This document shows positions 6,091 through 36,675 of a stretch of DNA of 40,265 nucleotides, piece by piece. Location: the NCBI GenBank assembly GCA_016931895.1, contig JAFGDY010000156.1, positions 1 through 40,265 on the forward strand, in the 5' to 3' direction. Each line of letters starts with the position of its first letter. Positions within the stretch are counted from its first letter, which is position 1. A program made the translations under genes and the position numbers. Source of the stretch: Anaerolineae bacterium (GTDB lineage: Bacteria > Chloroflexota > Anaerolineae > 4572-78 > J111). The notes under the pieces were generated by a model. It had not been told where the DNA came from. It did not search any database and saw nothing but the letters and a program-made list of their open reading frames with translations.

Positions 6091-6177
6091 CCCCTTTACG
6101 CACGTTCCTCCAGAGGTGACAGTCACTTACAAAGTGACTGTCACCTCTGGAATGCAGCAACGATGTGCGTAAGTCCT
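6091..6177 (-). mobile_element. MITE-like hairpin element, copy 1
   Basis: A perfect 19-base arm, CCAGAGGTGACAGTCACTT (6110-6128), is separated by ACA from its complement (6132-6150). The outer right end TGCGTAAGTCCT (6166-6177) matches, in reverse orientation, the AGGACTTACGCA ends of copies at 25179 and 32194. The left end keeps only TTACGCAC and has three extra bases. No target duplication is visible. It lies directly after the stop of the pst operon and could also act as a transcript-end hairpin. Confidence 0.8.
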
Positions 6178-6197
6178 ACCTATTTTAATCAAACAGG

Positions 6198-20503: not shown

Positions 20504-20583
20504 AATTGTTTTGGCGTTATCGGTTTGTTAAAGAGCAGGGTGTTGGCGTAGTTTTTTATTCTATAAAGAGTCTATCACGAAAA

Positions 20584-21687
20584 CTATGTTTTGCTGGTTA
20601 CGGTGTTGTTACAGCTTTGCAGGGCTTCTCTAAGAGGATTGCATCTTGAACCGAATTTTTTTGAGATTTGTTTTATTTTCCACCAGATATTTAGCCCCAA
20701 AATTCCCAAACGCTTCGGTAAGAGTAAAAGAATTTGCCAAATGATTTTTCTTGGGCCAACTATTTTTTCTAATACTTGTTTTCTTGAAATTGCAGGAAGA
20801 TCGTTAACTCCAATTTGTGTGTCAAAAAAGGACAACACTAGAATTGATTCCCAATAACCAGGACGATTCTCTATTTTGAGTGGTTCACATTCTTTATCTA
20901 GTTCATAATACCTGTGTAAAAAAATATTCAATTCTCGAAGCAACGCGACATAATCAGCGTGAGTTTTGCGAATTATCTGGGGATTCATATCTTTTGATGC
21001 TGAAATGTTTGAGCCATGGAGTCTATATTTTGCTAATGTTTCTTGAACTACACACGTGAGAGTCATAAAATTTGCACCTTCCGACAAATATCCATCTGCA
21101 AGAGCTTTTAGTGGAGGTATTGGAAATAATAAATCGGCGATTTCTCTTCTAAAAGAAAGTCCTGAGTTTGGCGGTTGTAGAGTGCGCCCTCCTTGATTAA
21201 GGGCCAACTGTGCATTCCAACCTTCATCTAATCGTCTTGGGTAAGATGGATCTAGTATTTTCCCATCTGCCGAAATTTTCCGAACGGGATGGGCACATAA
21301 TCCACAATCCGGATTCTGAAAAAACTCAGAAACAACCTTTTCGACTTTGGATTCTTCAAACAAATCATCAGAATCAAGTAAACAAATAATTTCCCCGCGA
21401 CAATTTTTGTATGCTGTATTTACCGCAGATGCTACGCCTCCATTTTTTTGAGTAATTAATTTCACTCGCTTATCATGCTCAACATAAGTTTGAATAATTT
21501 CTACTGAGCGATCTATAGAACCATCATCACATATTACTATCTCAAAATTTTGATATGTTTGATTTAACACACTTTCTATCGCCGCTGCGATATAGTCTTC
21601 ATAGTTGTAATTTGGCATAAGAACAGAAACAAGCGGATCTTGCCTTAATTTATTTAAAGGAATTGGTTCAAGTTTATTTTTTAACAT
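20584..21687 (-). CDS. Family 2 glycosyltransferase
   Basis: A GT-A type transferase of 367 residues, last gene of the polysaccharide operon. VSVLMPNYNYEDYI (20-33) is the first strand, CDDGS (53-57) binds the nucleotide, and LLDSDDLFEE (104-113) contains the metal-binding DxD. The C-terminal third is less conserved and ends basic. The ATG at 21687 has GAGGA 8 bases upstream. An alternative GTG at 21702 overlaps the stop of the upstream gene as GTGA. The gene is AT-rich like its neighbours. Donor and acceptor sugars are unknown; it probably adds one residue to the lipid-linked repeat unit on the cytoplasmic side. Confidence 0.88.
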   Translation of the reverse strand: MLKNKLEPIPLNKLRQDPLVSVLMPNYNYEDYIAAAIESVLNQTYQNFEIVICDDGSIDRSVEIIQTYVEHDKRVKLITQKNGGVASAVNTAYKNCRGEIICLLDSDDLFEESKVEKVVSEFFQNPDCGLCAHPVRKISADGKILDPSYPRRLDEGWNAQLALNQGGRTLQPPNSGLSFRREIADLLFPIPPLKALADGYLSEGANFMTLTCVVQETLAKYRLHGSNISASKDMNPQIIRKTHADYVALLRELNIFLHRYYELDKECEPLKIENRPGYWESILVLSFFDTQIGVNDLPAISRKQVLEKIVGPRKIIWQILLLLPKRLGILGLNIWWKIKQISKKFGSRCNPLREALQSCNNTVTSKT

Positions 21688-21698
21688 AGCATCAGTCC

Positions 21699-23009
21699 TC
21701 ACTTGCTAAATTTCATCGTTCCACCAACAAATAAACCATCCCGTATTGAATCTGCAATACCTTGAAAACTCCAGCGAGCATAACGTCCAACTTGGATAAT
21801 ATCATGTTCATCCAACACCCCCATAGCTTTATCTTTCCAGTTAGAATTAGGGTAGCGCCAGGTATAAGCAGTTTCAATCCAGGTGGGGTCAACTACTTCA
21901 GCCTCTTTTATCCAATCCCAAGTTTGTAATTCTACCACAATCTGCTGCGACTGAGCTTTTAGCTGCTTTTGGTCAGGCTTGGCATTTTCAGGGGCAGCTT
22001 TTTCTACATAAATGCTTACTCGGTCATTATTCTGTCTGGAAGACGCCGGTAAAAATGAATTATCCACATTGCTATAGAAACCGACCCGGTGAAAACCGGC
22101 CTTGCTCTGAGGAATATACAGCCAGTGGTCATTCGGACATTTGTCCCCTTTTACCGCACCAATATTTATTACCAGCACAGAAGTTGCCGGAGCAGATTCT
22201 TCATCTGTCTCCAGATCAGCCAATTGCAGCATTTGGTTCAAGGGTAAGGTAGAAATTAATTGGTTATAAACAACTTCTGTCCCATCATCAAAATAGACCA
22301 CTTTGTCTGCTATATCAATTTTTACAGCCTTTTTTCCATATCGAACGTCACATTGTTCTGACAACCGCCGAGATAAAGCATCTAGACCATCTTCAGGGTA
22401 CACAAAATTCACATTGTAACCCACAGCCGAAGCCTGTTCAAATGCACCTTGCAACGCCAATAACAAATCTACCGGAGATTTATAGGCATCCTGCGGAGCA
22501 ATTGTTCGCCACAAACCAGCCGTATATAGTTCATGAAACGGATGGAAGAAAAGTTTGCCTAGTGTAACGCCAAAACTTTTATCTAACCACTCGGCCATTG
22601 TATTTACAGATTGTTTGGAATATGCACCGTCAACCATTTCTTTAAGCGCTAAAGAGACTGTTTTCGCTTCCAGAAATCGAAGGTGGTTTTGCAATGGATA
22701 GGGTACGAATAACTGTTTTTCTGGGAAAAATACACTCGATTTGCGTGCATAAGTTTTAACCGGAGATAAATTACGAATCAAGCGAAGAATCGATGGATTA
22801 CCCCCAAAAATCCAATGTCCGCCGCCTATCTCAAAACGGTATGCTTCGCTGTCATTTGGCGCAATGTGTAATCTTTCACGATTGTTTGGGCGCACATAAT
22901 ACGACGAACAAATTCCACCAGGGATACCTTTTGCTTCATAAACTGGCAGTCCAGAAGCCCACCCGGCAGCTAACCCTGTCATACCTGAACCAAGAATAAT
23001 AGACTGCAT
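21699..23009 (-). CDS. FAD-dependent amine-oxidase / UDP-galactopyranose-mutase-like protein
   Basis: A flavoprotein of 436 residues. The N-terminal dinucleotide-binding motif is IILGSGMTGLAAGW, followed by VYEAKGIPGG, the second part of the Rossmann FAD motif. GGHWIFGGN, with its GGH-type segment, fits UDP-galactopyranose-mutase-like and protoporphyrinogen-oxidase-like proteins of sugar loci, as do PLNQML and the C-terminal flavin contact GLFVGGTM. In polysaccharide clusters such enzymes convert pyranose to furanose nucleotide sugars or oxidise sugars. Which applies cannot be read from the sequence. It lies four bases from the preceding methyltransferase gene and overlaps the alternative GTG start of the next gene by 3 bases. 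Confidence 0.75.
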   Translation of the reverse strand: MQSIILGSGMTGLAAGWASGLPVYEAKGIPGGICSSYYVRPNNRERLHIAPNDSEAYRFEIGGGHWIFGGNPSILRLIRNLSPVKTYARKSSVFFPEKQLFVPYPLQNHLRFLEAKTVSLALKEMVDGAYSKQSVNTMAEWLDKSFGVTLGKLFFHPFHELYTAGLWRTIAPQDAYKSPVDLLLALQGAFEQASAVGYNVNFVYPEDGLDALSRRLSEQCDVRYGKKAVKIDIADKVVYFDDGTEVVYNQLISTLPLNQMLQLADLETDEESAPATSVLVINIGAVKGDKCPNDHWLYIPQSKAGFHRVGFYSNVDNSFLPASSRQNNDRVSIYVEKAAPENAKPDQKQLKAQSQQIVVELQTWDWIKEAEVVDPTWIETAYTWRYPNSNWKDKAMGVLDEHDIIQVGRYARWSFQGIADSIRDGLFVGGTMKFSK

Positions 23010-23013
23010 TTGT

Positions 23014-23718
23014 TTATGATCCTTTTTTTTGAATAAATAGAATTCTCCCTAACTGCCAAGTTGCCTTGATTCGAGACTGATGCTTATCTACCAAATCATT
23101 CAGCATATTTGTCACTTGAGGGAGGTCATGACCATAGTCATCAAAAGCTACAACTCCTCCAGCCGATAATTTATTCCAAACTAGATAGAAATCATTTTTT
23201 ACATATAATGGGTCATGATTACCATCAATAAAACCAAAACTTATAAATTCTGCCGGAATTCTAACGTCCATTGTGTCAGCAATTATCAATTCGATATTGT
23301 TGCAATCTTGCGTTACCTTCTTGAAAATATCTAATTGAGAGGTTTTTTCTCCAAAATTCTTAACCACATGTCCTTGATATATTTTTGCCATAGTGGTACC
23401 TGTAGTGCATAGTGTCTGATCAAAATTCATTTCAAATATGTCTATTGCATAGACTTTTTTATTACTGTTGTTAACCTCAAGGAATTTTGCTAATTTATAA
23501 GTTCCACCTCCAAGGAAGGTGCCTATTTCCACAAAATCACCGTCAATCTCAAGAAGTTCATAATTGTTGATAACCCGCAACAACTTGTCATATCCGGCAA
23601 GATCAGTCCCTACCGGAGGAGCCGGATATCCGAACTCTAAAAAGAACTTTATCAAATACAAAATTCGATTCAGAAACGGCAACCAAGGCCTTAAAATTCT
23701 CACGAATATTTCTCTCAT
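23014..23718 (-). CDS. Class I SAM-dependent methyltransferase (Methyltransf_24 type)
   Basis: A protein of 234 residues. An N-terminal amphipathic or hydrophobic stretch (about 8-30) could lie on the membrane. The SAM-binding motif I is FVEIGTFLGGGTYKLAKFL, then VYAIDIFE with the acidic residue that holds the ribose, and FGFIDGNHDPLYVKNDFYLVW followed by SAGGVVAFDDYGHD. This series is typical of Methyltransf_24 proteins in sugar and antibiotic loci, which methylate sugar hydroxyls. The acceptor is unknown. It lies between the flippase and flavoprotein genes with gaps of four bases, so it belongs to the same transcript. Confidence 0.82.
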   Translation of the reverse strand: MREIFVRILRPWLPFLNRILYLIKFFLEFGYPAPPVGTDLAGYDKLLRVINNYELLEIDGDFVEIGTFLGGGTYKLAKFLEVNNSNKKVYAIDIFEMNFDQTLCTTGTTMAKIYQGHVVKNFGEKTSQLDIFKKVTQDCNNIELIIADTMDVRIPAEFISFGFIDGNHDPLYVKNDFYLVWNKLSAGGVVAFDDYGHDLPQVTNMLNDLVDKHQSRIKATWQLGRILFIQKKGS

Positions 23719-23722
23719 AGTC

Positions 23723-25102
23723 TTAATACTCTCTTGTGCACTTAAAGCCGTCTGTTTGATTTACAAGAGGATTCAATCCACTAAGGTGGCAATAAATAAC
23801 GAAGAATACGGTAACAAAAAGCTCTGATATAGTTACCGCGAAGGCCATTCCAATACCATACATCAGTGGGACAAGTAACATTGCCAGTAATAGGTTCACC
23901 AAACCACCAGAAAATGTCAGTATCAAGACGGGTCTATCGTGATGAAAGGGTATCATTATCTGCACCCCGTATACATTGCTGATAGCTACCAGAAAGGGGA
24001 TAATCGCTAGAATTCTTATGATAGGTATAGATGCCCAGAATTCTGGACCAAATATGAACATTACTATATATGGGGCTAATAAAAACAGGCCAATTGAAGC
24101 TACTAGCCCCATACTTCCTAATGCAAATAATGTCCTACGCGCCCAAATCATAAATACATCTTTTCTTTCCGATGCCATCTTGCTAAATCTTGGATAAATT
24201 GCTTGAGAAGCTGTGCCTATTAAAACCTGGATTATTCTGACTAACTTCTCCGCAGCACTATAATACCCAACCACTGTATTATTGGTCAACAACCCCAATA
24301 TCAACGCGTTCCCTGCTGTATAAAAACCTGTAGCACCTGTGGTAAGAAATAAGGGCCATCCATCTGAGAGTTCTTTTCTTATATCAGCCCAACGAGGAAT
24401 AATAAAATGGAAATCAAGTTTTCGATAAACAATCAAAATTGATATTATTCCCGCCCCTACCCACTGCATTGATATTAACCCTGCATAAATAAAATAATCA
24501 TTCGGTTGTCGAATTAACAGAAAAATGCCTGCAGTGATGATAATTCGAACCAAAGAGTTAATTGTGGATATTGTTGTCATCTGCTCCAGACCAAGAAATA
24601 GCCATGTAGGAAATAACAGGTCGCCAACCACGATTCCGAACAAAATAAGAAGTAGAACAGCAGATTCATTAAGTTTTGGAATGAATACTATCAACAGTAC
24701 CAATATACAAAAGCCGATAATTGTTAGCAGAGATTTTGCAATCCAAACATTACTTACAATTGTGTTAATCTCTTGTGGATTGTCACGTGAAGCTGATATT
24801 TTTCGTGTTGCAGAAAGGTTGAACCCATAGCCGACAAATATAGTAAGATAGGCTATCAAGCTTTGACTAAAGGCAATTTTTCCAAAATTCTGTGGTTCAA
24901 GAATCCGAACCAGATACGGTATTGTTATTAAAGGGAGTAAATAATTAACAAACTGGAGCGAATATAAAGACAAAATATTTTTCCCTACAGTAGAACAAAA
25001 ACCTTTTCGGGTTAATTCGATTATCCTTGCAACCCGTGTGACCAATGACCTTCTCGTACCATAAGGAATCAGGTTACCGCATAAATTCCAACTGCTCCCC
25101 AT
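23723..25102 (-). CDS. wzx: Wzx-type oligosaccharide flippase
   Basis: A polytopic membrane protein of 459 residues in the RfbX/MOP superfamily. After about 35 polar residues come some twelve to fourteen hydrophobic helices. The first, NILSLYSLQFVNYLLPLITIPYLVRIL, is typical of Wzx, followed by NFGKIAFSQSLIAYL, and LSDGWPLFLTT at the start of the second half. It would flip undecaprenyl-linked repeat units to the outside. No Wzz chain-length gene is present in the window, and the only polymerase candidate is the GT-C protein upstream. A hairpin element (25179-25262) separates it from the preceding methyltransferase gene. The first 35 residues may be over-annotated; GGAGG lies too far (about 14 bases) from the ATG. 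Confidence 0.87.
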   Translation of the reverse strand: MGSSWNLCGNLIPYGTRRSLVTRVARIIELTRKGFCSTVGKNILSLYSLQFVNYLLPLITIPYLVRILEPQNFGKIAFSQSLIAYLTIFVGYGFNLSATRKISASRDNPQEINTIVSNVWIAKSLLTIIGFCILVLLIVFIPKLNESAVLLLILFGIVVGDLLFPTWLFLGLEQMTTISTINSLVRIIITAGIFLLIRQPNDYFIYAGLISMQWVGAGIISILIVYRKLDFHFIIPRWADIRKELSDGWPLFLTTGATGFYTAGNALILGLLTNNTVVGYYSAAEKLVRIIQVLIGTASQAIYPRFSKMASERKDVFMIWARRTLFALGSMGLVASIGLFLLAPYIVMFIFGPEFWASIPIIRILAIIPFLVAISNVYGVQIMIPFHHDRPVLILTFSGGLVNLLLAMLLVPLMYGIGMAFAVTISELFVTVFFVIYCHLSGLNPLVNQTDGFKCTREY

Positions 25103-25171
25103 TATCTAAGCACTAACCTCCAAACCAAGAATAACAGCTATCTCTGCGGATAGTGGGTTGTGACACTGATG

Positions 25172-25268
25172 TATCCTTAGGACTTACGCAAATCGTTGAT
25201 ACGTTCCAGAGGTGACAGTCACTTCGCAAGTGACTGTCACCTCTGGAATGTGCGTAAGTCCTATCCTT
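25172..25268 (+). mobile_element. MITE-like hairpin element, copy 2, with 7-bp target duplication
   Basis: The 84-base element (25179-25262) starts AGGACTTACGCA and ends TGCGTAAGTCCT. Its centre is the 19-base arm CCAGAGGTGACAGTCACTT (25206-25224), loop CGC, and the complementary arm (25228-25246). TATCCTT is duplicated on both sides (25172-25178 and 25262-25268). It lies between two co-directional polysaccharide genes. Confidence 0.88.
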
Positions 25269-26006
25269 TTACTTTCGTTTAAGTACGTAGTACTGATATA
25301 GACCTTTTGAGTTAAGCCAGCCTTTTCGCCGTATATCTTCTGAAACTTTATATAGAAGGGGAAGTTTAGATGCGAAACCGGACAAAGGCGGGAACAAGTA
25401 AAAACTTCCTAAACGCCGTTTGATTAAAAAATGATTCTCAAACAAACCTTGTAGTATCTTGGGCGAAATATAACTTTCCAGTAATTGCCCGGTTCGGTTG
25501 GTATTCCGGCGCAAAATAACCGCTTCTGTTTTGCGTACTACCTCAAAAATGCTTTGCGGATTCGGCGTGGAAATGATGCTCCATCCTCCTGGGGTAATCA
25601 TTCGTGCTATTTCAATAACAGAGAAGGGTTGTAATTCTTGCTCAATATGTTCCAGTACTTCAGAACAGACGACCAGATCAAACTTTTGATCAGGAAATGG
25701 AAAACCAGGTAATGCTGCGGTAGAAAATTTTATCTGCGGGTAATTTGGAAGAATATTTTTCATGAGTGGAGTTGCGGTAATATCAACTGAAATAACCTTA
25801 TCGAATCTTTCGGCCAGAAACCTGGAAATTTTTCCAGCTCCCGCGCCTATATCTAAAACCGTAGCGGATGAGGGTAAAGCGAGCGAGTTTATCAACTCGA
25901 ATACAACCTGATACCTCTCGTAATCATCGTATGACAGTTTTCGACTGGTTCCAAAAAACTGTTGATAAAATTCTTGTGATTGATGTAGCTGGTCGCTTTT
26001 GCTCAA
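25269..26006 (-). CDS. Class I SAM-dependent methyltransferase (Methyltransf_11 type)
   Basis: A protein of 245 residues. SAM-binding motif I is VLDIGAGAGKISRFL (50-64), followed by VISVDITATPLM with the ribose-binding aspartate. FDLVVCSEVLEHI is motif II and ITPGGWSIISTPNP motif III, so it is a complete small-molecule methyltransferase. The TTG at 26006 is preferred because AGGAG is 7 bases upstream. An ATG at 26030 directly abuts the stop of the previous gene but has no ribosome-binding site. The last codons reach the 7-base duplication flanking the hairpin element. It likely methylates a sugar of the surface polymer, perhaps capping the chain. Confidence 0.83.
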   Translation of the reverse strand: MSKSDQLHQSQEFYQQFFGTSRKLSYDDYERYQVVFELINSLALPSSATVLDIGAGAGKISRFLAERFDKVISVDITATPLMKNILPNYPQIKFSTAALPGFPFPDQKFDLVVCSEVLEHIEQELQPFSVIEIARMITPGGWSIISTPNPQSIFEVVRKTEAVILRRNTNRTGQLLESYISPKILQGLFENHFLIKRRLGSFYLFPPLSGFASKLPLLYKVSEDIRRKGWLNSKGLYQYYVLKRK

Positions 26007-26030
26007 AGCTATTCTCCTAACAGCGATCAT

Positions 26031-27164
26031 TTAAGAATTGAGGATTTTTTGATAGGCAGGCAACAGGTGAGTATCCACTATTTTTTGCCAGCTATGTTCA
26101 AGCACTGACGAACGCGCATGGTTCTGTATTTGGTTAAGTAAAGTTTGATCTCGCGCAATGCGGATAAAGGCATCATTAGCCAGTGCTTCCGGCGTATCGT
26201 CTATCAGTAACCCGTTAAAACAATCTTGGATAAAATATTGGTGACCTTCGGTATTTGTAGCAATTACCGGCAACCCACAGCCAAGATATTCGGCTACTTT
26301 GAGTGGTGGTTGAATGTAGTAACCGCTCTCTATGGGGAGGTAGGAAACACCCATATCAGCAGCAGACAAATAAGCCGGAACTGATTGATAGGGGACATAT
26401 CCCTCAAAAACCACACGATCAACAATACTTAAATCTTTGGCCAGGTTAATCAGGTTTAGTTTATCGGGGCCATTACCAATCAAAACCAACTTCAGTTGAG
26501 GGCATTTCACCTGGGCCTGTTTTAGCGCGTAGAGAAGCGTATCAAGTCGCCGTCGTTTATCCAATACACCAGAATAGATAAAAATAAAATCGTTGTTAGA
26601 GTACCCCAATCGCTCTCGAATTTTTGAATTGCCGACGGGGTTAAATTTTTCAAGATTGACTCCTAACGGAGCAATATAAAAATTAGGTTTCATTGTGCCA
26701 AATATAGATCGAGCAACACTTTCTGATATTATAAAAACAGCATCGAAAAACAAGACTTGCCGCAATATGGGAGAGAGGTTTTCGAGTCTTCTTTTTATTC
26801 CGGAACTGATTGGTCCACTGCGTATATTATAAATCCATTTAGCTTTAGATATTCGTCGTCCTAACAATGGCAACAAAAATGCGCCGGAGAAGGGATAAAC
26901 ATGAACTAAATCAAAATACTCTGTTTTTACATAGTCCAGTACGCTTTGGATAAAAGAGGTAATGCCTGTTAGTGTTCGGCCAGAATTGACTGGTATACGA
27001 GTTACTTTTACACCATTCACACTTTGTGATGATGGCTCGTCAGGCCGTCCTAGAACGATGGCGTATACATCAGTCCCAGACCTGGCTTCATTCATTGTAT
27101 TTTCATACAAATCGGTAAGTCCTTGATCTGGGTAAAAGTTAAATGCTACGTGACAAACGCGCAC
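26031..27164 (-). CDS. Family 4 glycosyltransferase (GT-B)
   Basis: A retaining glycosyltransferase of 377 residues. The N-terminal Rossmann domain begins MRVCHVAFNFYPDQGLTDL, and the C-terminal domain with FIFIYSGVLDKRRRLDTLL and LVLIGNGPD. The nucleotide-sugar site is seen in YIQPPLKVAEYLGCGLPVIA, which fits the E-x7-E type motif of the family. No membrane helix is present, so it acts at the inner face. The start is GTG at 27164, with GGAG 10 bases upstream; it lies one base after the stop of the GT-C gene. The specific sugar is unknown. Confidence 0.88.
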   Translation of the reverse strand: MRVCHVAFNFYPDQGLTDLYENTMNEARSGTDVYAIVLGRPDEPSSQSVNGVKVTRIPVNSGRTLTGITSFIQSVLDYVKTEYFDLVHVYPFSGAFLLPLLGRRISKAKWIYNIRSGPISSGIKRRLENLSPILRQVLFFDAVFIISESVARSIFGTMKPNFYIAPLGVNLEKFNPVGNSKIRERLGYSNNDFIFIYSGVLDKRRRLDTLLYALKQAQVKCPQLKLVLIGNGPDKLNLINLAKDLSIVDRVVFEGYVPYQSVPAYLSAADMGVSYLPIESGYYIQPPLKVAEYLGCGLPVIATNTEGHQYFIQDCFNGLLIDDTPEALANDAFIRIARDQTLLNQIQNHARSSVLEHSWQKIVDTHLLPAYQKILNS

Positions 27165-27165
27165 C

Positions 27166-29109
27166 TTAATCTTGCTCCGTTAAATTCTCATCTTCAGTAT
27201 TTGGCGTAAAAAAGTCTAATGACAGGAACGATTGTACGATACCGTTATCATAAACTCGCAAACGTGATGGTCCACTGAGATAATCGGCAAAACTTTCAGA
27301 CGGCGGAACAAGCTCAATAACCTGTTCCTTTGGGAAGGGAATAGAGAAACCCTTAATCATATCATATTCACGATGAACGATTAAACTTGCCGGTTCATAC
27401 GTAGTTGGATTCCGGGGATCAATAATTTCTGCTTTATCCAGATATAAACTAGATTTAGCACTGGCAGCTAGAGTATTGTTGCCATACACATTTTTAACAT
27501 AATTAAACCCCTCAATTTCAGAAATATAGAAACCAGGCCGAACACTCAGGTTGCTTACATATAATGGGCTATCTGGAATAGATCTGGTAGGCGAGGTTAT
27601 CATTAGAGCTAGGATGAGAAAAAGAATTAACGGCGTTGTTAAAGATGCCATTATTTTCAGCTTACCCTGAATGTAAAGTAGCCTTGACAAAACAGTGGCT
27701 ACTAACAAAGAAGCTGGTACATAGAGAAAAACAATCCAGCGAGCGGGTAAAATTGCGGCTGCGCCAATAACACTTGCGCCGTAGGTAACACCTAGAAATG
27801 CTCCAAGCAAGGAGGTTAACACTACACTATCATTCTCTTGAGTTTGATTGTTAAACGAAGCTAATGCCCCCACCAGGGAAAATATTAATAAGACTGTCCA
27901 TCCGGCTTCTCCTAGGAATACGGACCATTTGTTTAATGAACCTGCAATGGACACAGATTCAACATTACCCAGTTCCACAGTGGATAAAGCTGATTTAACA
28001 GATAGTGTCGCCAGACTGAAAAAATCAAGGTTGGGTCTTAAATAACTTACCATCCAATAGGACAGCATACCAACACCTACTATAATCGAGAGGGTCGTAC
28101 TCACCAAAATAGACGACCTGCTCATGCGATCATTGATGAATCTCATCAACCCTGGCAGTGCCATCATAACCAGTAGAGCGAAAAATAAAATGAGTGTTGC
28201 CAGTGAGTGAGTCAGCACCATAATGCTACTAAAAAGTATGATGATTATAGTCCAGCTAATCTTTTCCCCAGGTTTTTGTGATTCCTTCCGTTCAAAGAGA
28301 CTCAAAAGTATCAGAATAAAAAAAACAATAGCCAGAGTCATTGGTATTATTTGCACACCCCACTGAATTTGGTAGTCACTTAAGCTTATCAGTAGGGCTG
28401 CAAATAGCCCCGTCCTGGCCTCAAAAAGCATTTTACCAATAGGAAAAACACCCAATAGAGCAATAGACTGAAGAATACTCACCAAAAATATACCCATTTT
28501 GGAGGTTAAGCCGGATACCAAGCAAAAAACTGCGGCTAGCAAATGCATAACCGGGAAAGGGCTATAAGAACTTTCTGGAACTTCACCAGTGACCATCAAT
28601 TCCTCAATAAGTCTTTGATGGTAAAAAGGATCATTTCCCGACACGCTGGGGTAAAGAAAAAAGGCTCCAGCTCTAAAGCTTATGCTTAACAAAAGAATCT
28701 GGCCTAGCAATACTGCCTGCTTCCAGGTAGGGGCGCAATCAAGTATGGTAATCTGTAAAACCACTATGGCTACAGCACTCAAGAAAAATCCAAAATAGGC
28801 TGGATTTCTGTAATAAAGCGACTCTCTAAGTACAAAAATACTGGTTAGTAAAAAGATAAGAAATACAAATACTACTATCACAAAAGGTTCGGTAGCGGTT
28901 TGCCAAAATGATGAGGGATTACTCGATTTCCTCTCGCTCAAAAAATTTCTTATAGAAAGGTAAATCAGGCAAGCAATAGATATTGCATATCCCAAGTGAG
29001 TTCGATTTAAATTGTAGTATTCACTGGCAAAAATTGCCGCTATTCCAATTCCAAGTCCTACTATGGCCAAAAAAACATCAGTACGGCTAGTTATTGTGTT
29101 AATATTCAA
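27166..29109 (-). CDS. GT-C membrane glycosyltransferase, STT3/AglB-like
   Basis: An integral membrane protein of 647 residues with many hydrophobic helices and a C-terminal extracytoplasmic domain of about 130 residues. The first external loop contains SGNDPFYHQRLIEEL (about residues 157-171), closely resembling the catalytic DP(W/Y)YH loop of STT3/AglB oligosaccharyltransferases and related GT-C enzymes that use polyprenyl-linked donors. It could polymerise or ligate lipid-linked repeat units, filling the missing Wzy or ligase role. That is an inference. The TTG at 29109 is chosen: GGAGG lies 8 bases upstream, and it overlaps the upstream stop as TTGA. An earlier TTG at 29130 lies ahead of this site. 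Confidence 0.75.
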   Translation of the reverse strand: MNINTITSRTDVFLAIVGLGIGIAAIFASEYYNLNRTHLGYAISIACLIYLSIRNFLSERKSSNPSSFWQTATEPFVIVVFVFLIFLLTSIFVLRESLYYRNPAYFGFFLSAVAIVVLQITILDCAPTWKQAVLLGQILLLSISFRAGAFFLYPSVSGNDPFYHQRLIEELMVTGEVPESSYSPFPVMHLLAAVFCLVSGLTSKMGIFLVSILQSIALLGVFPIGKMLFEARTGLFAALLISLSDYQIQWGVQIIPMTLAIVFFILILLSLFERKESQKPGEKISWTIIIILFSSIMVLTHSLATLILFFALLVMMALPGLMRFINDRMSRSSILVSTTLSIIVGVGMLSYWMVSYLRPNLDFFSLATLSVKSALSTVELGNVESVSIAGSLNKWSVFLGEAGWTVLLIFSLVGALASFNNQTQENDSVVLTSLLGAFLGVTYGASVIGAAAILPARWIVFLYVPASLLVATVLSRLLYIQGKLKIMASLTTPLILFLILALMITSPTRSIPDSPLYVSNLSVRPGFYISEIEGFNYVKNVYGNNTLAASAKSSLYLDKAEIIDPRNPTTYEPASLIVHREYDMIKGFSIPFPKEQVIELVPPSESFADYLSGPSRLRVYDNGIVQSFLSLDFFTPNTEDENLTEQD

Positions 29110-30032
29110 GATGGAAGCCTCCGAACCCAACGTCTAGACCCTTTCCACAAAATCTGAGGAATTTGTGGAAATATTTCACGCAAACGCCGAAAGCGAAAGT
29201 AAAATAATACTTCTTCATCTTCAATTTTGGGTTTGCGTTGAATTAAACTTTTTAAGTATCCCCAGCCGTAAGCTAGAAATAAATATTTGGGATGATTGAA
29301 TAAAGCGGTATGGGCACAATGTCCAAGAACAATAAGGGGATGATAACCAAGATAATACGACTCTGCCCCCCTCATAACCCATCTTGCCCATAGTGAGGTT
29401 GACTCATGTGTTTTTCGTAACATATTGGCTTGAATGTGTTCAAACCGACAAAGTTTCCACCCCTTTGTCACTGCCCTGGCTTCAGCTACTGTTTCGGGGG
29501 CGCGTACAATTTGTATTCCGCCAATTTGCTCGAAGCATTGACGCCGATATAGACGTATACCATCTGTGGGGTGATCCCCCAGAACTATCTCAATTTCTTT
29601 GTTAACTTTCCCTTTGTTTCCTTCGTAGATAACCATGCTAGGACTGGCTATACCCAATGACGCACTTTTATCAAACTCCTGAACTAACAATTCAAAACAA
29701 GAAGAATCGAACAAAACATCTGCATCAATCTTCCCCATTAATTCATAGGTAATACCTGCTTTCTCGGCTGCCAGTTGGAGTTGTGTAAAACCATAATCAA
29801 CTACTTCGGCAAAATGTTTTCCCAATCCTCCAGGACCCGGCGGCAGTGAACGACTAATAATCCAGGAATTATTTGCCGTAAGCTCATCTATGATCTCCTG
29901 AGTTCTATCAGTGCTACCATCGTTTACAATAAGCCATAAGGCAGGGCGATGGCTTTGTTTCAGAATTGATTGAGCCGCAGTTGGCAGATTGTTTTCTTCA
30001 TTCCTTACCGGAGTCATCAGGAGATAGTTCAT
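29106..30032 (-). CDS. Family 2 glycosyltransferase
   Basis: A GT-A enzyme of 308 residues. MNYLLMTPVRNEENNL opens the fold, LIVNDGSTDRT (35-45) is the nucleotide-binding segment and MGKIDADVLFD (99-109) holds the DxD metal site. The C-terminal part has GADSYY-like and YLFLAYGWGYLKSL segments that may touch the membrane. The ATG at 30032 is chosen because the protein then starts at its first strand. A GTG at 30041, overlapping the upstream stop as GTGA, is possible, but its GAGAGG is too close. The stop overlaps the GT-C gene start. The sugar is unknown. Confidence 0.87.
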   Translation of the reverse strand: MNYLLMTPVRNEENNLPTAAQSILKQSHRPALWLIVNDGSTDRTQEIIDELTANNSWIISRSLPPGPGGLGKHFAEVVDYGFTQLQLAAEKAGITYELMGKIDADVLFDSSCFELLVQEFDKSASLGIASPSMVIYEGNKGKVNKEIEIVLGDHPTDGIRLYRRQCFEQIGGIQIVRAPETVAEARAVTKGWKLCRFEHIQANMLRKTHESTSLWARWVMRGAESYYLGYHPLIVLGHCAHTALFNHPKYLFLAYGWGYLKSLIQRKPKIEDEEVLFYFRFRRLREIFPQIPQILWKGSRRWVRRLPS

Positions 30033-30037
30033 TGCTA

Positions 30038-31099
30038 TCACTGCCTCTCAAACTTATTATTCAATACTTCTACAGCATTTGAGAAATGATAAGGTTTAGC
30101 CAAGTTTGGCAAGTTCAAGACAAAAGACCGAACATTTTTAACTTGATTTAATTGAGCCTGTGCATCTTTCCACCGTTTGCTCAATGAATTATCAGGGAAA
30201 ACGTAAGTGTAAGCTTCCACATATCGCGGATATACGCCAATATGACCAATATTATAGTTTGAATGGTCTTCCGCAGCAGAAACAGCGACCAATTGAGAAA
30301 GATTGTTACCAATCTCTAATTCATTCAGGCTAATTTTGTGGTCTGAGCTGACTTTACATTGAATAATACTGGTCAGGCAGCTTTGATTTATTGTTGGCAG
30401 ATCTTTTGATTTGAAACGCATTAGAAATAAAAGAAGTCGAAACCTATCAAAAGTTGAAAGGGTTTCGGTTGGCAAATATTTATATCTAAAAGCAAAAATA
30501 CCGGCGAGGGCAGGAAAACTGAATACCTGACCATCGCCTACAATCACGGTATCATCACCCATTATCCGCCACCCATTACTTTGACGGAGCAGGGTCATAA
30601 GTAAGGTTGTTTTATAAGTTCCACCTCGTCCAAACAAAATAACGGCCCGTCCATCTTTTGAGGCGGCAGCACCGTGCACCAAAAAGTATTCCTTTTGGGA
30701 TAGGCGGTAAGCTACAATTTGTTTCAACAACAGTGATTCCCAAAACATACCTGGAGCCAAAATCTGTTTCAAGCTCTTATAGGTACCGGAGATACGAATA
30801 CAGGTTTTACCGTATTCAAAGCCCTTGATTTCAACTTGCCAATGGGCAGTGCGGTAAGCATCTTTACAGTAAAAATAATTTTCGCGCACAAAGAATTGGT
30901 GATCAACCAAATAACATCCCTGCTTATCAGGTTCAAAGTCTCCGATTTCTAGAACAATATCCGGCTTACGGTCCAGATTGGTCACCTGGAAATATCGAAA
31001 TGGTTGGCTAATTTCTTTTATAGGATCAAAGGCGGCAGACCTTTGAACGCCAATAGAAACCAGGCCGTGGATATCATAGTACTCTGTTACGGTCGTCAA
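30038..31099 (-). CDS. HPr-kinase-like P-loop protein, copy B
   Basis: A protein of 353 residues. Residues 1-130 form an unknown N-terminal domain with PDIVLEIGDF. The second half looks like the HPrK/PEP-carboxykinase-type P-loop fold: YFLVHGAAAS with His142, P-loop GRGGTYKTT (157-165), GWRIMGDDTVIV with the Asp pair 182-183, and FSFPALAG. This is not a true HPr kinase, since the C-terminal signature region and regulatory domain are missing. The protein upstream is a clear paralog. The start is TTG at 31099, overlapping the upstream stop as TTGA with GGGGAA before it. The phosphorylated substrate is unknown; a sugar, lipid carrier or glycosyltransferase is conceivable. Confidence 0.7.
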   Translation of the reverse strand: MTTVTEYYDIHGLVSIGVQRSAAFDPIKEISQPFRYFQVTNLDRKPDIVLEIGDFEPDKQGCYLVDHQFFVRENYFYCKDAYRTAHWQVEIKGFEYGKTCIRISGTYKSLKQILAPGMFWESLLLKQIVAYRLSQKEYFLVHGAAASKDGRAVILFGRGGTYKTTLLMTLLRQSNGWRIMGDDTVIVGDGQVFSFPALAGIFAFRYKYLPTETLSTFDRFRLLLFLMRFKSKDLPTINQSCLTSIIQCKVSSDHKISLNELEIGNNLSQLVAVSAAEDHSNYNIGHIGVYPRYVEAYTYVFPDNSLSKRWKDAQAQLNQVKNVRSFVLNLPNLAKPYHFSNAVEVLNNKFERQ

Positions 31100-32181
31100 G
31101 CGATCACGTTCCCCGTATTGATAGTTTCATCTTTAGTACCATACAAATCTAAAACACACTTAAGTACATTGGAAGTGATTTTTTCAGGCATAGTAATTTG
31201 GCGATAAGGGATATTGACGGGTAAATTCCTATATAATAAAGCTTCATATATTTCCCAATGTCGGGCGAAATCTGATTCAGGAAATAGGCAACCGTAGAGT
31301 GCTGTATGACGAACGAAAGGAAAGAATTCAAGTTTTTGATTGCTCACTGTCCGTTTAACGATCTTGGCTCGATCAACCGGCTGGTAAAAAAATTCCTGCC
31401 CGCTGAGCAATGAATTAAATTCGGCAATATCTGCCGAGGCTTGTAAAGCATTTGGGAATACTTTTACCGAACTAATAGGGGTAAACACTTTTACATATCC
31501 CCCACTAAAACGATAGACCAGATTCCATACTTTGAAGCGCAATTTTTTCGTCTTTGATAAGGTTCTCCATACACTAGGTCGTAGATTGTAACCAAACATA
31601 TTTAGAGGTGAAAAAAAACTAGAAACTTGCCCATCTTTGCAAATAACAAAATTATCTCCTAAATAGTTGAAGCCTTTTTGGTCAACTGCTTCTAAGGCAA
31701 TGGTTGTTTTGCCGCCTCCCCCACGTCCTGAATATATAGCTGCCTTGTTTCCCAATGAAATTGCCGAGGCATGGATGAAGGAATACCCCTGCTTGGTTAG
31801 CATATATTGTATAAAAAAGTCAATCACCCGGCCCGGAATAAATGGTAGGCCAGATAAATTAGCATTTACTCTTACTTTACATTGAGCCGCATCAAGTCCC
31901 GTAACATCAAACTGCCAGTTCCCTCCCAACTTTTCCGATATTCCAGTATGATACATATAACCTGGTTTGCCATAGTATTCGTCATCAAGAATATTACAGC
32001 CTGTTAAGGATGGCGTAAATGATCCGACTTCAATTGTTAGATCAGGGGGAACATCTAACGCCAATGGTACACGAAAAGCTTGATACCGCTGGTTGATATC
32101 TAACAATTTGCGTAAACTACCCACATTGTGGTCAACAATATCGAAATTAAAAATATGGTGTACAGTGTAATGGTAAATCAT
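31096..32181 (-). CDS. HPr-kinase-like P-loop protein, copy A
   Basis: A protein of 361 residues when started at ATG 32181. PDLTIEVGSF (46-55) parallels PDIVLEIGDF of the neighbour. YSFIHASAIS has His137, the P-loop is GRGGGGKTT (152-160), and NYLGDNFVICKDG follows with Asp-Asn where copy B has Asp-Asp. The two genes are therefore tandem, diverged duplicates. The frame stays open upstream to 32307, but those 42 codons run through a hairpin element (32194-32277) and are unlikely to be native. No good Shine-Dalgarno precedes the ATG. HPrK-like proteins near PqqD-type peptides are known in other clusters; I saw no such peptide here. Confidence 0.7.
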   Translation of the reverse strand: MIYHYTVHHIFNFDIVDHNVGSLRKLLDINQRYQAFRVPLALDVPPDLTIEVGSFTPSLTGCNILDDEYYGKPGYMYHTGISEKLGGNWQFDVTGLDAAQCKVRVNANLSGLPFIPGRVIDFFIQYMLTKQGYSFIHASAISLGNKAAIYSGRGGGGKTTIALEAVDQKGFNYLGDNFVICKDGQVSSFFSPLNMFGYNLRPSVWRTLSKTKKLRFKVWNLVYRFSGGYVKVFTPISSVKVFPNALQASADIAEFNSLLSGQEFFYQPVDRAKIVKRTVSNQKLEFFPFVRHTALYGCLFPESDFARHWEIYEALLYRNLPVNIPYRQITMPEKITSNVLKCVLDLYGTKDETINTGNVIA

Positions 32182-32193
32182 TATTTCAATAAT

Positions 32194-32277
32194 AGGACTT
32201 ACGCAAATCGTTGATGCGTTCCAGAGGTGACAGTCACTTGCGAAGTGACTGTCACCTCTGGAATGTGCGCAAGTCCT
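32194..32277 (+). mobile_element. MITE-like hairpin element, copy 3
   Basis: This 84-base copy starts AGGACTTACGCA and ends TGCGCAAGTCCT. The centre is CCAGAGGTGACAGTCACTT (32221-32239), loop GCG, and the complementary arm (32243-32261). The sequence is almost identical to copy 2, but no clear target duplication flanks it. It lies between the genes for the small membrane protein and the first HPrK-like protein, 12 bases before the latter's ATG. Confidence 0.87.
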
Positions 32278-32299
32278 AAATAAACAAACATCCGAGTAT

Positions 32300-33055
32300 T
32301 TATTCAACCGGAAGCTGATTACAGCTTGTTCCGATTACCTCTAACCAGTGGTAAGGTACTGTAACTTCATCAAGATAAAGGTTCAGCCTCATCTTATTTG
32401 CCAAATCAGATTGAAGTAACGATGAGTCCATATCCAAACGTTGTCTTGATCCTGGCTCCAAGAGAAATATCGCTAATAACACCTCTGGGGCAGTATTGTC
32501 TTTACAAGTCAGAATGTATGTATGAGGATTTTGTTCGTGGTTTACAATAAAAACTTCCATCTGTCCAGATAATCGAGGAATGACATAAAACTCGGTATAA
32601 TTTTCCTGTGCTATGGGTTGGTGTAGCGAAATGAATAGAATTAAGATAACGGCAGTAATGATGGCAACGGATATAGTAAGAACACTTTTTTTTATTGAAT
32701 TATCGAGATCGTCAGAGGTCATCTGTTGGCGAAAAACAAGTGTTGCCAATAAAAACCAGGAAACAATCAGGCTGGCTAAGGTAATAAATTCACGGGTTAT
32801 ATTGATATTGAGGATCACCAAACTAAAAGCCTCTAGTGTTACTAATACTGCTCCCAAGGTGAAGATGAGAATAAAACGTGTAACATCTGGTTTATCATTA
32901 TCCTCAACAAGAATCTGGGTTAGCAGCCAACCCGGAATAATGAATATTCCAATTATGCTGAGTAAATCCCCAATCCAGGCCAGTTCAAAAAACAATGAGG
33001 CTAGCGTAAAAATACTAAAAAATAATACGATAAAAAATTCCAGGAAATATTTCAT
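32300..33055 (-). CDS. Small polytopic membrane protein, possibly DUF1616-like
   Basis: A protein of 251 residues with about five hydrophobic helices in the first 150 residues. An extracytoplasmic domain of about 100 residues follows (from about HQPIAQENYTEFYV to the end). The segment IIPGWLLTQIL near residues 38-48, followed by a stretch of hydrophobic helices, resembles DUF1616 proteins. That comparison is from memory and weak. The ATG at 33055 has no clear ribosome-binding site. It is the first wholly AT-rich gene after the compositional boundary. Its role in the pathway is unknown; the external domain could bind polymer or partners. Confidence 0.6.
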   Translation of the reverse strand: MKYFLEFFIVLFFSIFTLASLFFELAWIGDLLSIIGIFIIPGWLLTQILVEDNDKPDVTRFILIFTLGAVLVTLEAFSLVILNINITREFITLASLIVSWFLLATLVFRQQMTSDDLDNSIKKSVLTISVAIITAVILILFISLHQPIAQENYTEFYVIPRLSGQMEVFIVNHEQNPHTYILTCKDNTAPEVLLAIFLLEPGSRQRLDMDSSLLQSDLANKMRLNLYLDEVTVPYHWLEVIGTSCNQLPVE

Positions 33056-33122: not shown

Positions 33123-33626
33123 TTAAGATTTGCTCATTATTGACATTGCAGACACATTCCACGCATTTAATTGTCCACGTAAAGCATTGATTAGCATGGT
33201 AGACGTGCTCGCTTTATATTCATAAGTTGACTGAACTAACACCGAAAATAATGTGCTTATTGATGGTTCCGTCACCACCACCGCCTGACCCCTGGCTTGT
33301 AAAGCTGTTGCCAATTGTTGTTGGTGGTCATCCACCACCTCACCAAATTGCTTCAACCGGGGTACCACCACCAAAGGTTTACCCTGGCGCAAGGCCGTAA
33401 TAATGGCGCCGGCGGCGGCGTGCATTACAATGATCCGGGCGGCCTGGGTCAACTCAACCATCCGTTGGCTGGTGGCAAAATCAAAATACTCGGCGTGTTT
33501 CGGCCGGTAGGTTGAACTGCCCCGCTGGATGATGACACGCTCGTCGAGTTCGGCGGCCAATTCGTCCGCCGCCTGCACCAGCCGGTCAAAACCCTGATTG
33601 TGCGTGCCCACCGTTACCAAAATCAT
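33123..33626 (-). CDS. Alg13/EpsF-like glycosyltransferase subunit
   Basis: This is the catalytic subunit of a two-part GT-B enzyme (167 residues), corresponding to the C-terminal half of MurG-like transferases. MILVTVGTHNQGFDRLVQAAD is the opening, and VMHAAAGAIITALRQGKPLVVVPR followed by DDHQQQLATAL is the nucleotide-sugar site. It pairs with the Alg14-like membrane subunit encoded just upstream; the ATG overlaps that gene's stop (ATGA at 33623-33626). A longer frame to 33755 would overlap the Alg14 gene. The last 45-50 codons are more AT-rich than the rest and read differently from typical family ends, which marks a composition boundary. Confidence 0.85.
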   Translation of the reverse strand: MILVTVGTHNQGFDRLVQAADELAAELDERVIIQRGSSTYRPKHAEYFDFATSQRMVELTQAARIIVMHAAAGAIITALRQGKPLVVVPRLKQFGEVVDDHQQQLATALQARGQAVVVTEPSISTLFSVLVQSTYEYKASTSTMLINALRGQLNAWNVSAMSIMSKS

Positions 33627-34072
33627 ATCACCGCCCCTTTGTATTGGGCCTTGGGGCCGCAAACCTTTAACAATTGGGGCCACTGCACCCAAAAAACATC
33701 CACCACCGGATAAACCAGCTTGCCGGTCAACGACAGGTCCTCCACCCGGCACCAACTTTCAATAAAAATGGTTTTGCAGCCCAACAGTTTGCCTAAATAA
33801 AAAAAGGGCAGCGCAATTTCGGCGCCCAGGCTCACTATCACCTGGGGACGTTCCCGCCGCAAAATTGACCAGGCCCAAAACGTGGCCCGGAGCATGCGCC
33901 AAACACTGGTCCCAACGTTGTCGGTAAAGTAGGCCGGGGCAATGGCCCGCACCTCCCCCTCCCGGGCGCTGTGATAGGTGGCAAAAAAAATGTCGTGCCC
34001 CTTAAAAGCGTCGAGAATTTGTAAGGTTTCGGTGAGATGACCGCCGTGCGAACAGGCCAAGCAGATTTTCAT
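33623..34072 (-). CDS. Alg14-like membrane-anchoring glycosyltransferase subunit
   Basis: A protein of 149 residues. ACSHGGHLTETLQIL (5-19) is the typical GGHLTE motif of Alg14 and bacterial PssD/EpsE-like subunits. VIVSLGAEIALPFFYLGKLLGCKTIFIESWCRV carries the conserved G-x-E region, and PQLLKVCGPKAQYKGAVI ends the domain. Alg14-type proteins bring the Alg13 partner to the membrane to add a second sugar to a lipid-linked first sugar. The ATG at 34072 has GGAGGAG 8 bases upstream. It is GC-rich, like the genes upstream. Confidence 0.87.
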   Translation of the reverse strand: MKICLACSHGGHLTETLQILDAFKGHDIFFATYHSAREGEVRAIAPAYFTDNVGTSVWRMLRATFWAWSILRRERPQVIVSLGAEIALPFFYLGKLLGCKTIFIESWCRVEDLSLTGKLVYPVVDVFWVQWPQLLKVCGPKAQYKGAVI

Positions 34073-35208: not shown

Positions 35209-36186
35209 TCAGGCTTCCGGTTCGCTGGAACGCAGCATGCGCATCAGCGGTTGACCGGCATGAACGACAAAGCCGGCCAGCAAAATCACCAGGCCAACTA
35301 TGGTAAACGGAAAGGTGGCGGTCAAGTAAACCGGATCAGGGGGAGGATGGGGTTGGTAAAAATCCGGGGGCCATATTCCCCAGAGCAGGCCAAACAACAG
35401 GCAAAGCACGCTCAAACTACTACAGCAAAGCGCCGGCCGGTGGCAGGCCGTCAACCTTAAAATTCCGGCCAGCACCAGCAAGCCCTGCACCAGCACCGAA
35501 CGTTTGACCTTACCCTCATACCGAACCGTAACCGGCACTTCGGCCACTCTCAGCCCAAACTTGCGGGCCAAAAACTGCATTTCGGATTCTACGGCAAAGC
35601 CGTTGGATTGAAACGAGATGGCCCGCAAGGCCCCGGCGGAGAAGGCTCTAAAACCGCATTGGGTGTCGGTGAGGGAGATGCCGGAGATTTGGTTGATGAT
35701 GAAATTAAAAACGCGGTGTCCCCAGATACGGTGGCGGGGCGTGTTGCTGGTATTTTGCAGGTAGCGAGAGCCAACCACCAGGTCCGCCTGACCGGTCAAA
35801 ATGGGGGCGATCAGCCTGGTCGTTTCTTGAGGCAAATGTTGTCCATCGGCGTCAATCGTGATCACCAGATCAGGGTTCAATTTGTAAGCCGCCCGGAAGC
35901 CGGTGTCCAAGGCGGCGCCCTTACCTTGGTTTTGCGCGTGGCTTACTACGGTTGCGCCGGCGGCCCGGGCTACCTCGGCAGTGCCGTCGGTGGAGCCGTC
36001 GTCTACCACCAGCACCACGGCCGCATACCGGCGCATCTCCAGCGCAATCTGGCCAATCGTTCGGGCCTCATTGTAAGCCGGAATGATGGCGACTACGGTT
36101 TGGTCGCCAGGATGATAAGGATGTTGCCTTTTGGGAAGGGTAGGTCTGATATTTATCAAGTTGACGTCGTAATAAGCCAGGGCCAT
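35209..36186 (-). CDS. Dolichyl-phosphate-mannose-synthase-like glycosyltransferase with two membrane helices
   Basis: A 325-residue GT2 protein. VVAIIPAYNEARTI is the start, VVDDGSTDGT (60-69) the nucleotide loop and ITIDADGQHLP (109-119) the catalytic metal site. TDTQCGFRAF is diagnostic of DPM-type enzymes that load a sugar onto a polyprenyl phosphate. Two helices after residue 230 (LCCSSLSVLCLLFGLLWGI and FTIVGLVILLAGFVV) anchor it. The ATG at 36186 has GGAG 7 bases upstream. As the first intact gene it may supply the polyprenyl-phosphate sugar donor used by the GT-C enzyme downstream. Confidence 0.88.
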   Translation of the reverse strand: MALAYYDVNLINIRPTLPKRQHPYHPGDQTVVAIIPAYNEARTIGQIALEMRRYAAVVLVVDDGSTDGTAEVARAAGATVVSHAQNQGKGAALDTGFRAAYKLNPDLVITIDADGQHLPQETTRLIAPILTGQADLVVGSRYLQNTSNTPRHRIWGHRVFNFIINQISGISLTDTQCGFRAFSAGALRAISFQSNGFAVESEMQFLARKFGLRVAEVPVTVRYEGKVKRSVLVQGLLVLAGILRLTACHRPALCCSSLSVLCLLFGLLWGIWPPDFYQPHPPPDPVYLTATFPFTIVGLVILLAGFVVHAGQPLMRMLRSSEPEA

Positions 36187-36198
36187 TTTTCTTCTCCG

Positions 36199-36675
36199 TT
36201 AGGGTAGGGTCTGGGTGACGCTCGCTGCGGGGTTATCAGTTTTTAAGCCATTATGATCAACGATCTCTAATAAAGCGGGATGTTCTTGCAACACCTGCGC
36301 CACAGTTTTGCCTTCGCCGCGTTTGGGCGGTCTGGACCAGCGGCCATTGGCCAGTGCAGATAGGGCAGGCAAAATATCGCGGGTGTTCCGGCTGACGGTT
36401 GATTTATCAACCTCAAACAAAAACCCCAGGGCCTCCGTATTCAAATACAGGTGGAGCAACATCAGGGTCATCAACAACCGGTCCTTCAGCTTTAATTTAT
36501 AATCCGGCCCGCCGCCGACACAGCGCCGGCGATCGGGGCGATCAAGCCGCTGGTAATGTTTACGTAACCAGTAGGGTTCCAATTTTTGCAACAATTCATT
36601 GAATTTGACCACGCTCACCCCGCTAAGCTCCTGAAAGAGGATGGGTTTTTGTTTTAATTGTTCATAAGTAATCAT
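36199..36675 (-). pseudogene. Truncated IS5-type transposase (N-terminal helix-turn-helix domain only)
   Basis: A 158-residue frame matching the N-terminal part of IS5-family DDE transposases. YKLKLKDRLLMTLMLLHLYLNTEALGFLFEVDKSTVSRN is the HTH region, followed by KTVAQVLQEHPALLEIVDHNG. Intact relatives continue at that point with the first catalytic aspartate in a DATE-type motif and then the DDE domain. Here the protein diverges (VDHNGLKTDNP) and stops 21 residues later, so no catalytic domain exists. The remaining space to the next gene is 12 bases, showing deletion instead of frameshift. It lies at the upstream edge of the polysaccharide locus. Confidence 0.8.

Follow-up and report, generated by a model that had tools for sequence, protein, structure and literature searches.

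A diverged tandem pair of HprK-like proteins in glycan loci of an Anaerolineae bacterium and of archaea

Introduction

HPr kinase (HprK; TIGR00679, PF07475; structures 1jb1, 2qmh and 1knx) has a core made up of a histidine, a P-loop and an Asp-Asp pair. The same core is found in ATP-dependent PEP carboxykinase (PF01293), a far larger metabolic enzyme. Other described families are the HprK-related kinases A and B (TIGR04352 and TIGR04355) and ScmC (TIGR04249). The lasso-peptide kinases PadeK, ThcoK and PsmK are homologs of HPr kinase (PMC8498205) and share a His-Lys-Asp-Asp set (PMC9266682, PMC8498205). Mutation has established that these residues are needed, and in the PsmK pathway a hexose is added to the phosphoserine after phosphorylation (review PMC9266682). 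Each of the three is encoded by a single gene in a RiPP cluster and has a peptide substrate.

A stretch of 40,265 nucleotides from an Anaerolineae bacterium of the phylum Chloroflexota, referred to as the window, carries two adjacent genes with this core, hkA and hkB. They are located among genes for glycan synthesis. Glycosylation with polyprenyl-phosphate sugars, which involves a synthase, a GtrA flippase and a GT-C transferase, occurs in all domains of life. We know of no phosphotransferase step in its accepted scheme and, to our knowledge, a DPM1-type synthase with GtrA has no published description with an HprK-like domain.

Results

Gene pair and sequence motifs

The original prediction comprised two adjacent genes for diverged paralogs, each with a set of recognisable motifs, between a membrane protein and glycosyltransferases. 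Both genes were present with these motifs:

31096-32181, minus strand: hkB, putative HprK/PEPCK-superfamily protein, B type; ATG start, 361 aa; H8, H137, canonical P-loop GRGGGGK158TT, D176-N177
30038-31099, minus strand: hkA, putative HprK/PEPCK-superfamily protein, A type; TTG start, 353 aa; H11, H142, P-loop GRGGTY162K163TT (Gly to Tyr), D182-D183

The gene hkB is transcribed first and overlaps hkA by 4 bp. A second 4-bp overlap joins hkA to a GT2 gene (29106-30041). The motifs are PDIVLEIG, VHGAA, GRGGTYKTT and GDD in hkA and PDLTIEVG, IHASA, GRGGGGKTT and GDN in hkB. The proteins hkA and hkB share 25% identity across about 313 aa (E 2.9e-24), more than expected by chance, and are paralogs as predicted. 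The same P-loop had been read for both, which was not correct: the residue preceding the Lys is Tyr in hkA, in place of the usual Gly of hkB.

Superfamily assignment

The pair had been described as HPr-kinase-like, with the regulatory and C-terminal signature regions of HprK missing. Neither hkA nor hkB matched the Pfam HprK model PF07475 or TIGR00679, which confirmed the missing regions, and no assigned Pfam or NCBIfam family was found for either protein. Single-protein searches of Pfam and NCBIfam with hkA and hkB gave only weak, sub-threshold matches to PEPCK and HprK-related models. The NCBIfam HprK-related models covered only about 55-65 residues around the P-loop and stayed far under cut-off. 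With TIGR04352 and TIGR04355, hkA and hkB reached about 30 bits at most, compared with a curated cut-off of 200 bits. Across the A/B proteins, the local P-loop matches to TIGR04352, TIGR04355 and TIGR04249 amounted to about 12-44 bits, far under the curated cut-offs of 200 and 125 bits.

A profile of 11 close relatives matched PEPCK structures with an E-value of 3e-4 and HPr kinase structures with 0.08. When the profile was widened to 32 relatives, HPr kinase structures ranked first among the solved structures with 8e-5, and eight of these 32 relatives matched PF07475, the HPr kinase C-terminal domain. Profile matches to HPr kinase and PEPCK spanned the His, P-loop and Asp-Asp core. This core is accompanied in the branch of hkA and hkB by an almost invariant Tyr-x-x-His (mostly YxIH) near the N-terminus. 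AlphaFold models from three-sequence alignments, comprising the window and one locus only, had pLDDT values of 32.0 and 35.7 and were unusable. Altogether, membership of hkA and hkB in the HprK/PEPCK superfamily is supported at profile level, and to this extent the predicted identity stands.

No HPr gene had been seen near the pair. This observation extends to the whole genome, which is 97% complete and had no match to PF00381, whereas 7 of 14 control genomes matched in the same search. HPr as a substrate is therefore excluded for practical purposes. A conventional HPr kinase/phosphorylase for carbon regulation would explain the superfamily relationship only. The proteins lack the N-terminal domain as well as the C-terminal signature of HprK, and the family is found in glycan loci as two diverged tandem genes, which makes this role hardly credible.

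Active-site residues

Residues were compared in 13 A/B proteins (eight A including hkA, five B including hkB) and 20 others. The His (142 in hkA, 137 in hkB), the Lys (163, 158) and the first Asp (182, 176) were invariant in all 13 A/B proteins. At the position of the second Asp, 8/13 had Asp, three A proteins had Glu, and hkB and its sister L094_B had Asn. The P-loop Lys was preceded by Tyr, Phe or Ser in 8/8 A proteins and by Gly in 5/5 B proteins and 20/20 others. Accordingly, hkB conforms to the Walker A motif GxxxxGK[ST], while the last Gly of this motif is replaced by Tyr in hkA and by Phe or Ser in the rest of the A clade. Since the Gly is lost in all A proteins and the Asp pair varies, the strict difference between A and B sits in the P-loop and not in the Asp pair. 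The idea that the Asp-Asn copy is a regulatory subunit is weakened by this comparison and is not general. Asp-Asp was retained in three of the five B proteins, and the D-to-N exchange of hkB was common to only one of four archaeal B partners.

All four residues of the lasso-peptide kinase set are present in hkA (His142-Lys163-Asp182-Asp183), together with an altered P-loop. In hkB, the P-loop is standard and the last Asp is replaced by Asn. Judged from these residues, hkA and hkB could act jointly, one contributing a full catalytic set and the other a standard P-loop.

Genomic context

The membrane protein upstream of hkB and the GT2 downstream of hkA agree with the predicted glycan setting. 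The neighbouring genes were the following:

23723-25102, minus strand: Wzx-type polysaccharide flippase (Pfam Polysacc_synt 7.1e-57)
25269-26030, minus strand: SAM-dependent methyltransferase, last gene of the cassette (Pfam Methyltransf_23 1.2e-15)
26031-27164, minus strand: GT4 glycosyltransferase (Pfam Glycos_transf_1 5.5e-24)
27166-29130, minus strand: PMT-like multipass membrane protein, probable GT-C glycosyltransferase (PMT_2 2.8e-4, below cut-off)
29106-30041, minus strand: GT2 glycosyltransferase (Pfam Glycos_transf_2 4.5e-13)
32300-33055, minus strand: membrane protein upstream of hkB, no assigned family
33123-33755, minus strand: GT28 C-terminal-domain protein, PssE/Alg13-like (Pfam 2.1e-15; counterpart L092 11749-12228, 4e-30)
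33623-34072, minus strand: Alg14/PssD-like protein (Pfam 1.3e-20; counterpart L092 12225-12701, 7e-37)
35209-36186, minus strand: GT2 of the polyprenyl-phosphate-sugar synthase (DPM1) kind (Pfam Glycos_transf_2 6.7e-28)

The DPM1 label of the last gene comes from reading the sequence, which includes C-terminal hydrophobic segments. The archaeal locus L092 has the gene order of the window: PssD-like, PssE-like, hkB, hkA, GT2, PMT-like and GT4. In place of the membrane protein of the window, a methyltransferase separates PssE from hkB in L092. The PMT-like protein matched its syntenic counterpart (L092 5989-7893) with 3e-32. The GT2 next to hkA was related to GT2s beside archaeal A-type genes in L010 (2e-50) and L122 (1e-54), and the GT2 of L092 was not its closest relative.

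Linkage of homologs to glycan loci had been set beforehand as a refutation test, and all analysed loci of the branch of hkA and hkB adjoined glycosyltransferases. Among 72 neighbour proteins from nine A/B-type and close-relative loci, 15 matched GT4 and 12 matched GT2 families; these family matches are the independent check of glycan linkage for the A/B group. A glycosyltransferase was located within 6 kb in 19/19 analysed loci of this branch, compared with 6/18 other Chloroflexota HprK-like loci and 0/3 archaeal HprK-like loci, with profiles built from A/B neighbours and thus independent for the other groups only.

This context bears on a lasso-peptide-type peptide or protein-Ser kinase, comparable to PadeK or PsmK, that would phosphorylate a small precursor peptide. 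Such an enzyme would share the catalytic quartet and the NCBIfam HprK-related matches, and the order of steps in the PsmK pathway is a precedent for coupling an HprK-like kinase to sugar transfer. However, a RiPP cluster contains a precursor, a protease and a cyclase, whereas the neighbours in the window are glycosyltransferases, a flippase and methyltransferases. Neither in the window nor in the loci of relatives did the neighbours include genes for PqqD, an asparagine-synthase-like cyclase or a protease. Peptide phosphorylation is quite unlikely because RiPP genes are absent from these loci. The predicted lack of a PqqD-like gene holds for the window and not for the genome. On another contig (C182, locus L017, 3306-10770), a PqqD-domain protein and a probable radical SAM protein are encoded together with two short HprK-like genes. 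This locus is a candidate RiPP cluster of the same genome.

Several further elements were observed around the pair. Two near-identical palindromic elements of about 86 bp (TAGGACTTACGCA...TGCGTAAGTCCTA) lie in the same orientation at 25178-25263 and 32188-32285 of the window. They exactly flank six genes, from the methyltransferase to hkB, and the second element stops about 11 bp ahead of the hkB start codon. Across the genome there were 64 matches to the element, many of which count both strands of a single palindrome; a third copy is at 6109-6178. The palindromes are a possible boundary of a mobile cassette. Adjoining the glycan island, a short ORF with a transposase helix-turn-helix (HTH_Tnp_4, 36199-36675) looks like a truncated insertion sequence. 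A related family recurs next to the archaeal A/B pairs (L092 14607-16055, L094 6792-8234, L095 11058-12503 and L123 6025-7476). Its L095 member is a B12-binding radical SAM protein by Pfam, and the family had no match in the window.

Fusions in other Chloroflexota

A more distant group of HprK-like domains related to hkA and hkB was fused behind GT2 and GtrA in six Chloroflexota genomes (L051, L052, L141, L142, L143 and L145). The fusion partner is the same kind of protein as a DPM1-type synthase with GtrA (PF00535 and PF04138). The GT2 part was of the polyprenyl-phosphate-sugar-synthase type, was confirmed as GT2 by Pfam in 4/4 tested proteins and had an intact metal-binding DxD in 5/5 inspected. 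GtrA scored above the Pfam cut-off in L141, L142 and L145 and was weak in L051. In L141, L142 and L143, the fusion is followed by genes for a PMT-type glycosyltransferase and for a PF04185-type phosphoesterase that apparently has a signal sequence. Both families were tested with Pfam in L141 and L142, and in L143 they were assigned by reading the sequence. Locus L015 encodes the same set of GT2, GtrA, HprK-like protein, PMT and phosphoesterase in unfused form, plus a PHP-domain gene. The catalytic His was kept in the fused domains of L141-L143 and was replaced by Tyr in L051, L052 and L145, which are of the Anaerolineae type. A literature search of open-licence papers combining GtrA, HPr kinase and dolichyl-phosphate mannose synthase returned nothing.

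Polysaccharide loci of other Chloroflexota contained another kind of tandem HprK-like pair, in which q is followed by p (L138 9126-11308, L139 8088-10267 and L140 8101-10315). The residues are Asp-Lys in q and Asp-Asn in p of L138 and L140, with Asp-Asp in neither partner.

The main rival to a kinase is a non-kinase nucleotide-binding switch. Its ATP-binding core would gate or scaffold a polyprenyl-phosphate-sugar synthase, a flippase or a PMT-like enzyme, so that glycan export tracks the energy state. Consistent with a switch, the P-loop Lys never varies and the first Asp hardly does, and other catalytic residues were lost in scattered lineages: Tyr replaces His in three fusions, Asn replaces the second Asp in hkB and the p proteins, Lys replaces it in the q proteins, and the P-loop Gly has given way to Phe, Tyr or Ser in all A proteins. 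However, His and Lys are both invariant throughout the A/B proteins and most of these have Asp-Asp or Asp-Glu, a constraint that exceeds the need of ATP binding alone. A switch is possible, if doubtful.

Distribution and descent

Full-length relatives are rare in the phylum. With the hkA sequence at E 1e-6, 4 of 400 genomes matched, the genome of the window included. The family profile at E 1e-20 found this genome alone in a search of 61 genomes of relatives. Plasmid and viral collections yielded no relative of hkA or hkB. Archaeal relatives were present in L010, recorded as 'uncultured archaeon', and in genomes of its phylum. Tandem A/B pairs occurred in the archaeal loci L092, L094, L095 and L123. 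The order of transcription was B then A in 5/5 known pairs, and the genes overlapped in three of the five. Three archaea of a single clade (L010, L121 and L122) had the A gene alone with no B gene found, and no lone B gene was seen among the analysed loci. One archaeal genome also carried three tandem HprK-like genes of another subgroup (L096 8697-11762), which adjoin a DUF362-like gene and glycosyltransferases.

In the tree, hkA grouped with the archaeal A proteins (support 99/98) and hkB with the archaeal B proteins (100/97). Forcing hkA and hkB together as sisters was 42 log-likelihood units worse (p-AU 0.0003), and a recent or independent duplication within the window was rejected by this test. 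Since the A and B clades each join the window with archaea and the sister constraint is rejected, the duplication predates the transfer between domains. By this phylogeny, the hkA/hkB pair is old, and its two genes crossed between archaea and bacteria together. The glycan island of the window (about 20500-33000) had a GC content of 37-43%, compared with 50-59% on both flanks, with a sharp change that coincides with the glycan genes. The direction of transfer is not proven; the low-GC island fits acquisition by the genome of the window.

The low GC content, the few genomes, the changed active-site residues and the repeat element near the start of hkB would also be compatible with functionless genes that decay as passengers of a transferred glycan island. 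However, both reading frames are intact, and the active-site Lys and His are conserved across domains of life. Purifying selection is evident in one close pair (dN/dS 0.15), and the gene order is conserved in five genomes. Decay is thus very unlikely.

Discussion

The core superfamily is already known. Searches of open-licence papers yielded nothing relevant on HprK-like proteins linked to polysaccharides or GtrA. Nor was a description found in such papers of the paired subgroup, of the residues in which its members differ, of its joint inheritance across domains or of the fusions to GT2-GtrA.

The proteins hkA and hkB very probably serve surface glycan assembly; that they do so as an active kinase appears only somewhat better than an even chance. 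The best explanation, held with modest confidence, would be a hetero-oligomeric, ATP-dependent HprK-like phosphotransferase in a polyprenyl-phosphate-sugar-dependent glycan pathway. In this model, hkA and hkB would be two unequal subunits of one phosphotransferase at the cytoplasmic face. A physical complex is suggested because the genes overlap and their order is fixed, and kinase activity because of the His-Lys-Asp-Asp residues. The site of action is suggested by the GT2-GtrA fusions, which would place the module at the stage in which sugars are attached to polyprenyl phosphate, flipped and then transferred. GT2 would make the lipid-linked sugar, GtrA- or Wzx-type proteins would move it and PMT-like GT-C enzymes would use it. 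The module would most likely phosphorylate a component of this pathway, which could be a lipid-linked intermediate, a glycan intermediate or a glycosyltransferase. Several points count against an active kinase, namely the missing second Asp in hkB and the missing P-loop Gly in hkA. An active paired kinase is further opposed by the p/q pairs devoid of Asp-Asp, the Anaerolineae-type fusions with Tyr for the catalytic His and the three archaea with A only. More tentatively, a two-subunit HprK-like kinase may perform a new phosphorylation in polyprenyl-phosphate-sugar surface glycosylation, with an exported PF04185 phosphoesterase removing the phosphate after export in some loci.

In evolutionary terms, hkA and hkB are a clear example of two paired subunits that were handed between archaea and bacteria together. 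The conserved HprK-like pair and its fused cousins point to an extra ATP-dependent step or control in glycan assembly, and hkA, hkB and the fusions name concrete genes for testing such a step.
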